Part shown: piece after piece, positions 4,712-5,750 of the stretch
Layout: each line of letters starts with the position of its first letter
How positions within the stretch are numbered: the first letter of the stretch is position 1
Source: an uncultured Demequina sp.
Lineage (GTDB): Bacteria; Actinomycetota; Actinomycetes; Actinomycetales; Demequinaceae
Assembly (NCBI GenBank): GCA_937925595.1
Contig: CALALQ010000160.1
Coordinates: 1 to 7,687 of the forward strand
DNA: 7,687 nucleotides
Reading direction: 5' to 3'
Made by a program: the position numbers and the translations under genes
The notes under the pieces: model-generated
What the model was told of the DNA's origin: nothing
Database searches by the model: none
Seen by the model: the letters and a program-made list of their open reading frames with translations, nothing else

Positions 4712-5083
4712 TTACGTTGCGATCGCTGTAATGAGCGCCCGCGCCCCCACACCTACGGCTGCCGCGATGAGGAAGCTCGTGAGGGTGCCGATGATGAAGC
4801 GCTCGGCCACGCCGCCCTTGAGGTCATCCTCCGCGTCCCGCAGCTCTGGGTAGCGGCCAAGACCCTTGATCGCGATCACGACGGCGATGACCTCCGGCAT
4901 GCCCACGAGGATTCCGCCGGTGATGAGCACCCGTTCGAGGATGCCTATCCAGGTGCCGCCGCGCAGCACCCCGGGCGTGGAAGCGGGACGGATCTTGGCG
5001 AAGATCAGCTTGACGGCCACCCAGCCGAGCAGCGCACTGACGGCGAGGGCCACGATGGCGATGAGGGTGATGACGAACGGCAC
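4712..5083 (-). CDS. Small integral membrane protein, partner of SatD-like protein
   Basis: The 123-residue product has three hydrophobic segments: about 3-28, 45-72 and 95-120. Between and around them are GGTWIGILER (42-51), AIKGLGRYPEL (71-81), a short acidic stretch (83-88), and AERFIIGTLTS (93-103). From memory, these blocks resemble the C-terminal part of DUF3307-type membrane proteins, which occur beside satD genes in other phyla; this was not searched. It may therefore be a short version lacking the N-terminal DUF3307 portion. Function is unknown. The GTG at 5083 is preferred over an ATG at 5122, which would run through the end of the satD frame: AAGG at 5094-5091 is 7 bases upstream, and the protein then starts directly with its first membrane segment. 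It begins 4 bp after the satD stop, so the pair is cotranscribed and probably coupled. Confidence 0.85.
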   Translation of the reverse strand: MPFVITLIAIVALAVSALLGWVAVKLIFAKIRPASTPGVLRGGTWIGILERVLITGGILVGMPEVIAVVIAIKGLGRYPELRDAEDDLKGGVAERFIIGTLTSFLIAAAVGVGARALITAIAT

Positions 5084-5087
5084 GGGC

Positions 5088-5693
5088 TCACCTTCCTGCT
5101 GCGTCGATGAGTCGCGCCGCAACGGGACGAGCGCGACGCTCCTCGTCGATCATGGCAGACGCGACGCGCTGGCTCACTGCCTGTTCGGAGATTTCCAGTC
5201 GTGCGGCGGCTTCGCGCTGGTTCAGCCCGCTCGCGAGCAGATCGGCGACCTCCCAGCCCGCTTCTGACCGACGCCGGATCACCGAGGCGAGCAGCTGGAC
5301 TACCGCCGTGGCCGCCTCGGCAGCGCCGTCGTGGGTGCCGGCGACCACGAGGGGCACCGGTTCCGACTTGAGTTTGGCCCTCTCGACGGCCGCCCTGGCG
5401 GCGACAAAGGCAGGTCCCGAGCTTGCTCGCGCAGACTCGCCCAATGGCTCGTCAACAGGGCCGGCGCCGATTCCCACCGACCATTTTCCCTTCCTGGCGA
5501 GCGTGAGCGCCAGGTCAAGCGCAGCGTCGGCGCTCGTGAGCACCGTCTGCACCTCGTCGCCGACTGTGCGCTCAAGCGGGAGCGCTACAGCGTCGGAATG
5601 TGCCGCGAACCAAGGGCGCAGCGACTCGGTGAGCGCCGCGACATGGTCGCCTTCGCGGGTGCTGGCCCGCTGGTCTGCCGTAAGGACGAACAT
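5088..5693 (-). CDS. SatD-family protein with C-terminal helix-turn-helix
   Basis: The 201-residue product has features I recognise from the SatD family: an N-terminal strand ending in an Asp (VLTADQRAST, D7), a GDE motif in TVGDEVQTVL (43-52), VGIGAGPV (73-80), and SGPAFVAARAAVERAK (92-107). The C-terminal part, LNQREAAARLEISEQAVSQR (157-176), is a clear helix-turn-helix of the sigma-70 region 4 or LuxR type, so DNA binding is likely. The D7, GD and GIGxG pattern loosely recalls class III nucleotidyl cyclases; this is inference only. The function of SatD proteins is poorly defined; the name comes from the acid-tolerance sat operon of Streptococcus mutans. The ATG at 5693 starts directly at the conserved strand. 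There is no Shine-Dalgarno, and the predicted transcript begins at this A. Autoregulation through the repeat array just upstream is plausible. Confidence 0.85.
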   Translation of the reverse strand: MFVLTADQRASTREGDHVAALTESLRPWFAAHSDAVALPLERTVGDEVQTVLTSADAALDLALTLARKGKWSVGIGAGPVDEPLGESARASSGPAFVAARAAVERAKLKSEPVPLVVAGTHDGAAEAATAVVQLLASVIRRRSEAGWEVADLLASGLNQREAAARLEISEQAVSQRVASAMIDEERRARPVAARLIDAAGR

Positions 5694-5695
5694 TC

Positions 5696-5743
5696 ATCAA
5701 GGTTAAACACTTGATTGTCACTAATCAAGCAATAATCCTTGAT
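5696..5743. repeat. Four alternating operator half-sites at 14-bp steps
   Basis: On the plus strand the hexamers ATCAAG (5696-5701), CTTGAT (5710-5715), ATCAAG (5724-5729) and CTTGAT (5738-5743) alternate in orientation, with exactly 8 bp between each neighbour. The inner pair extends to a 7-6-7 palindrome, CTTGATT-gtcact-AATCAAG (5710-5729). This pair contains the -35 box, and the 5696-5701 half-site overlaps the -10 by two bases. Such a layout suggests cooperative binding of a dimeric repressor across the promoter. The HTH-bearing SatD-like protein is the obvious candidate, but this is inference. Confidence 0.75.
5700..5728 (-). promoter_or_regulatory. Sigma-A-type promoter for satD, predicted leaderless
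   Basis: On the minus strand, TTGATT (5728-5723) and TAACCT (5705-5700) are separated by exactly 17 bp and fit -35 TTGACA-like and -10 TANNNT elements. Six bases follow the -10 before the A of the satD ATG at 5693, the spacing at which transcription would start at that A. With no Shine-Dalgarno before the ATG, a leaderless mRNA, common in Actinobacteria, is the simplest reading. The surrounding 57-bp gap is about 33% GC, in sharp contrast to its flanks. Confidence 0.7.
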
Positions 5744-5750
5744 TGATGTC

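Follow-up and report, generated by a model that had tools for sequence, protein, structure and literature searches.

A conserved 14-bp ladder of alternating half-sites in front of an actinobacterial satD-like gene is a likely autoregulatory operator

The DNA that was analysed (the window) is a stretch of 7,687 nucleotides from an uncultured Demequina sp. (contig CALALQ010000160.1). Its minus strand carries, in order, pdxS, a NUDIX gene, pdxT, the ladder of repeats described here, a satD-like gene (5088..5693), a small membrane-protein gene (4712..5083), yebC, ruvC, ruvA, ruvB and secD, of which pdxT, yebC and the NUDIX gene were named by Pfam, and pdxS, ruvC, ruvA, ruvB and secD by reading their translations. 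The small membrane-protein gene, with a GTG start at 5083 that was placed from the sequence, lies downstream of satD as its probable operon partner, and a homologue is present in 77 of 80 satD loci. Its product (4712-5083) has a conserved LRGG.WIG.LER...KGLGR...ERF..GTLAS-type core, matches no Pfam family above cut-off, and presumably resembles the C-terminal part of DUF3307 proteins. The SecD-like protein carries a long Pro/Ser/Glu/Ala-rich insert (window about 975-1105).

The SatD-like protein is predicted to consist of a nucleotidyl-cyclase-like fold (about residues 1-135; window 5289-5693) fused to a C-terminal HTH, the recognition helix of which begins at residue 170. The window protein scores 15.5 bits against the SatD family (PF16264; gathering cut-off 29), and 15 of 18 relatives match this family at E ≤ 0.1 (best 2.3e-5). 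With HTH_3 of Pfam the window protein reaches 13.8 bits, below the cut-off of 23. The palm fold of class III nucleotidyl cyclases is predicted over most of the N-terminal domain, for which the Foldseek E-values are weak (best 8.5e-3; 0 of 774 at 0.001). Residues D7 and D46, which are invariant in this domain of SatD-like proteins, may correspond to the metal-binding pair of the cyclase palm.

The original prediction had described, upstream of satD, four ATCAAG/CTTGAT hexamers at 5696, 5710, 5724 and 5738, alternating in orientation with an exact step of 14 bp, in an AT-rich island of about 33% GC. All four hexamers are present at these positions, in these orientations and with this period, and the measured GC content is 33.3% (5694-5750). 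When periods of 8 to 40 were scanned, this was the only exact four-rung alternating hexamer ladder in the window. Eight ATCAAG matches occur in the window, four of which are the ladder hexamers; shuffled sequences had a mean of 1.99, and none of 200 shuffles reached eight.

Relatives of the locus were gathered in one scan of genome contigs with an 18-sequence alignment, from which the best 80 loci of 246 relatives were kept. Together with the window, these loci make up set A (81 regions from Demequina, Georgenia, Nesterenkonia, Cellulomonas, Actinotalea, Oerskovia and others). When the whole class was searched, 85 of 394 genomes proved to encode SatD-like proteins (E ≤ 1e-6), and the matches listed, except for one 63-aa fragment, were taken as set B (L098-L166; 69 regions) and set C (L167-L184; 18 regions, the most distant, with uncertain gene starts). 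Two further loci (L096 and L097) were left out of the period and half-site analyses because they stem from the same genomes as L003 and L024, which removed the overlap between sets A and B for those two genomes.

In most set A loci a ladder of the same spacing is visible directly before the ATG. Each of the 168 upstream regions was scored against itself, without presupposing a consensus; the highest-scoring alternating-ladder period was 14 in 80/81 regions of set A, 48/69 of set B and 9/18 of set C, while another period scored best in 21 regions of set B and nine of set C. Averaged over the regions, the score was 26.3 for a period of 14 and 13.1 to 17.2 for every other period between 8 and 24, and an in-gene control gave 18.2 at period 14 with no peak (16.2 to 18.6 across all periods). 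Same-orientation repeats rose at 14 as well, to a far smaller extent (17.3 versus 11.6 to 14.8 elsewhere). At least four rungs were found in 77 of 80 regions (79 loci and the window; L078 left out), with a fifth rung in 38 and a sixth in 21 of them, compared with 1-3 of 80 at rung positions 7-10. The comparison of satD upstream regions, which had been proposed as a check, thus came out in favour of the original prediction: the ladder is kept across genera, contrary to the outcome that would have refuted it. What is shared family-wide is the 14-bp geometry and not the ATCAAG hexamer itself. Four set B regions (L149, L156, L157 and L159), belonging to proteins with QSAVSQR helices, contain AGG-N6-CCT dyads, which gave no plain 14-bp ladder in the scoring.

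The anatomy of the ladder was read from a logo of 78 of the 81 set A regions (L054, L074 and L078, below the match threshold, were left out). Since the consensus used to anchor this logo on the proximal dyad included TA and CTTG, the anchoring favours the columns of that dyad but not those of the distal one. In the half-site cores, each column holds about 1 to 2 bits. The spacer of the inward-facing pair, taken from the distal dyad, holds 0.07-0.62 bits per column and has complementary ends, as against 0.01-0.20 for the outward spacer. Because the inward spacer is informative and the outward one is not, the conserved unit is a 20-bp inward dyad, roughly ATCAAGSNYNNRNSCTTGAT, repeated in tandem with centres 28 bp apart. 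The window thus contains a proximal dyad of the putative operator at 5696..5715 (minus strand; half-sites 5696-5701 and 5710-5715) and a distal one at 5724..5743 (minus strand; half-sites 5724-5729 and 5738-5743), joined by an 8-bp linker (5716..5723) that is kept in length and not in sequence (0.01-0.20 bits per column). Overlapping dyads, which had been offered as a possible mode of binding, did not hold up, since the dyads are separate and the outward 8-bp gap is a linker of fixed length; overlapping or outward dyads were rejected as the unit on the lack of information in the outward spacer. The distance from the end of the dyad to the ATG is 2 nt in 71 of the 81 regions, 3 nt in nine and 1 nt in one.

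Read along the gene strand, the ladder also accommodates a predicted promoter, with a -35 element TTGATT (5728-5723), a 17-bp spacer, a -10 element TAACCT (5705-5700) and the ATG (5693-5691). The -35 element (5723..5728, minus strand) overlaps half-site 5724-5729 and shares position 5723, its last base, with the end of the linker; its T, T and G are found in 77, 76 and 77 of the 78 regions. For the -10 element (5700..5705, minus strand), T is found in 69, A in 78 and the last T in 78 of these regions, and its TA is confined to the proximal dyad in the logo, the columns of which are favoured by the anchoring. A generic sigma-70 scan called no promoter at the ladder; the satD promoter was assigned from this conservation. 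The last base of the -10 element lies 7 nt upstream of the A of the ATG, and the satD transcript is therefore probably leaderless, with its start site predicted at the ATG itself. The original prediction was right that the array covers the -35 (by way of half-site 5724-5729), and understated its relation to the -10, which is not merely touched by the array but lies inside the proximal dyad.

As judged from sequence and conservation, the array thus overlaps the promoter of the gene for its candidate regulator. Because of this overlap, the most likely effect of SatD is repression of its own operon, with the protein lying over the -35 and -10 elements. The same binding could in principle activate the promoter instead, given that the -35 follows the half-site rather than the sigma consensus (it reads CTTGT or CTTGC in some lineages) and that such a promoter could be weak and in need of help. 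We nevertheless regard activation as unlikely, because the proximal dyad spans the -10 and in 71/81 regions stops 2 nt short of the ATG, a place where bound protein should block polymerase.

Whether SatD is the protein in question was approached through the variation of the half-sites. Half-site tables comprised 122 sequences (81 from set A, 40 of the 69 in set B and one of the 18 in set C); those of sets B and C were picked at a ladder score of at least 24, and only 41 of their 87 regions had a ladder clear enough. The ranking of protein columns and the residue/base counts used 117 sequences (81 from set A and 36 from set B), with L136, L137, L142, L162 and L167 dropped. For sets B and C and for L078, the register was set by a rule preferring AA and, slightly, G, and L078 was left out of the tables made from set A alone. 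Half-sites vary between lineages and are largely uniform within a genome: ATCAAG predominates in Demequina and Georgenia, Cellulomonas has ACAAG, two Nesterenkonia, Demequina globuliformis and Oerskovia flava have ATCAAC, and GCAAG or GAAAG accompanies the set B proteins with RQAVGQR.

Among 200 protein columns compared over the 117 sequences, recognition-helix columns ranked first for base 2 (column 170), for bases 3 and 4 (171) and for base 6 (175), and for base 5 column 172 tied with column 43. With E, P, A, V, K, T, Y or D at residue 170, base 2 was T in 68/70 sequences (two undecided), while Q went with A in 27/28 and R with G in 19/19. At residue 175, Q went with G at base 6 in 94/99 sequences (five undecided) and A, D, S or L with G in 9/9; K was accompanied by C in 4/4, and R by C or T in 5/5. 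L078, which has Q170 and K175, shows A at base 2 in all four rungs; the final base is C in two of these, G in another and T in the fourth. The pairing of residue 170 with base 2 is confounded by ancestry, because column 170 comes only third in set A alone (behind Q133 and R160) and leads S174 and V103 narrowly in the combined set (0.305, 0.285 and 0.263).

Changes were then placed on a tree built from residues 1-145, which excludes the HTH. Residue Q175 changed to K/R on seven branches and base 6 changed from G to C/T on seven, all of them the same branches (p = 1.5e-13 if branches are interchangeable), the K/R versus C/T grouping having been chosen after inspection of the residue-base table. 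In set A alone, 4/4 switches of residue 175 and base 6 coincided (p = 3.8e-8). With nothing dropped, 7/8 residue and 7/9 base switches did so (p = 3.2e-11; FastTree gave the same), the unmatched ones being a residue switch at L167 and base switches at L136/L137 and L142. An independent-pairs test with treekit (residue 175 scored as K/R175 or non-R176) had 2.8 of 4 pairs in agreement and none in opposition, too few supported pairs for significance. For Q at residue 170 and A at base 2, 2/3 residue changes and 2/2 base changes coincided, and for R and G the single change did (1/1); with so few coinciding switches, the 170 pair rests mostly on consistency. At residue 171 and base 3, all three residue changes coincided, but only 3/6 base changes.

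The sequence of the site therefore varies together with the recognition helix of its candidate regulator. Because half-site bases and residues 170, 171 and 175 change together, SatD very probably binds its own operator, and autoregulation by the adjacent HTH protein, put forward originally as plausible, is now strongly supported. One might argue that satD is under the control of another protein, which binds the ladder, and that the association with the SatD helix is a by-product of ancestry; base 2 in set A does correlate with the non-helix columns 133 and 111 too. However, one would not expect a site read by an unlinked protein to follow SatD residues. On seven separate branches of a tree from which the HTH was omitted, base 6 and residue 175 change jointly, and in the combined set every top-ranked column for bases 2, 3, 4 and 6 belongs to the helix, which makes a different regulator quite improbable.

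A role of the repeats in RNA, whether in an mRNA hairpin or in terminating the upstream gene, is suggested by the fact that each adjacent pair forms an inverted repeat. A terminator-like site was not found, though, the predicted transcript starts at the ATG, and the half-sites change in concert with the HTH. Moreover, a pdxT homologue is present in only 4/80 loci (which reach at most 3 kb upstream), so that the ladder follows satD and not the upstream gene, and we hold a role in RNA to be very improbable. Chance, or decay of a simple repeat, which the AT-richness of the gap might favour and which had already been thought an unlikely origin, can be given practically no weight, as dinucleotide shuffling of the 57-bp gap produced a four-rung ladder in 0/20,000 trials (three rungs in 2/20,000) and 14 is the best period in 80/81 relatives.

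Further targets were sought with two patterns. In the genomes of 20 of the 80 loci, the exact dyad was present in 15, in 13 of these at satD only, and absent in five. The two genomes with an exact dyad away from satD (G010 and G014; 0 for a backward control) carry it at residues 500 and 502 of a 779/781-residue open frame that is 94% identical between them, and this shared place in the same frame indicates one coding match rather than a regulatory site. The four-rung pattern with at most two mismatches was found at satD in 26 of 29 genomes, and the three misses carry ATCAAC half-sites; its two matches away from satD (G005 and G420) represent background, as the backward control gave four. The scan for further copies that the original prediction called for thus brought up no further target that exceeded background in the 20 genomes searched for the exact dyad or the 29 searched for the four-rung pattern, and both patterns point to a single apparent SatD target within them. 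Those two four-rung matches away from satD, the only ones (L185:1958-2003 and L186:2015-2060; one and two mismatches) lie at junctions beside peptidoglycan-enzyme genes (Amidase_2 in L185, PG_binding_1 in L186) and adjoin small frames that read as holin-like in translation and have no Pfam match. Their count is at background level, yet the shared setting in two genera is odd.

In viral contigs, eight stretches matched the ladder versus four for a wrongly spaced control, and no satD relative was seen among open frames of at least 90 aa within about 1.5 kb. Exact four-rung ladders at L188:7159-7204, L191:11749-11794 and L193:650-695 lie in or near frames whose translations resemble HTH repressors. 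The viral ladders are possibly operators of phage repressors with a similar half-site.

Taken as a whole, the comparative evidence makes it highly likely that the satD-like gene is autoregulated, with the ladder as the operator at which tandem-dyad binding by SatD would repress satD and the membrane-protein gene. SatD dimers would use the recognition helix of their C-terminal HTH to bind tandem inward dyads (two in the window, and a larger number in some relatives), with residue 170 (helix position 1) reading base 2 of the half-site, residue 171 (position 2) reading base 3 and residue 175 (position 6) reading base 6. The fixed 28-bp pitch of neighbouring dimers suggests that they bind cooperatively. 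Occupied dyads would cover the -35 and -10 of the leaderless promoter and thereby switch off satD and the downstream membrane-protein gene, and a nucleotide may control binding via the cyclase-like domain. More tentatively, and with considerable doubt, SatD could be a one-component nucleotide-signalling repressor, the cyclase-like domain of which binds or makes a nucleotide that controls the cooperative assembly of HTH dimers on a growing ladder of 14-bp pitch, in a family that records repeated, matched changes of the helix and its only operator, with helix positions 1, 2 and 6 following a code like that of 434.

The ladder opens a way into an actinobacterial protein that has hardly been studied. 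One regulator with one apparent target and one operator array offers a clean system for the joint change of a transcription factor and its site, in which exchanging a single residue and a single base can put the seven parallel switches of one residue-base pair to the test.

Among the literature matches listed, which were mostly outside subscription journals, no paper on a SatD operator was found, and the phrase 'SatD family' occurred in one of these papers (PMC10326533). Autoregulatory operators are already known; what is new is the conserved 14-bp ladder geometry in combination with a drifting recognition code. The HAIR-type motif of HspR/MerR is CTTGAGT-N7-ACTCAAG. An operator of this type was ruled out, since the outward pair here is CTTGAT-N8-ATCAAG, which differs in spacing and sequence, and the outward spacer is not conserved. 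Evidence of the same type as ours, in which columns of the protein alignment are correlated with those of the operator over a whole family, comes from a study of MerR regulators (PMC5045206). That study concerns another family, whereas the SatD sites form a multi-rung autoregulatory array with one apparent target. Compared with the palm domains of class III nucleotidyl cyclases, GGDEF and mCpol proteins, the SatD domain gives Foldseek matches that are weak (best 8.5e-3). A parallel in site reading exists with phage 434 and lambda-type repressors (434 complex 2OR1), in which an HTH recognition helix reads short half-sites, a model that mutagenesis of the 434 repressor supported according to PMC8163980. 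The window protein differs from this type in missing the HTH_3 cut-off, and the best fold matches of the HTH model are others, so that common descent with 434 does not follow from a shared code. In the 434 operator the half-sites are about 10 bp apart, closer together than the 14 bp of the SatD ladder. The 434 repressor uses Gln28, Gln29 and Gln33 (helix positions 1, 2 and 6) on ACAAG/ACAAT, and changing Gln28 to Ala moves its preference to TCAA; likewise, in the SatD family Q170 goes with ACAAG and A170 with TCAAG.
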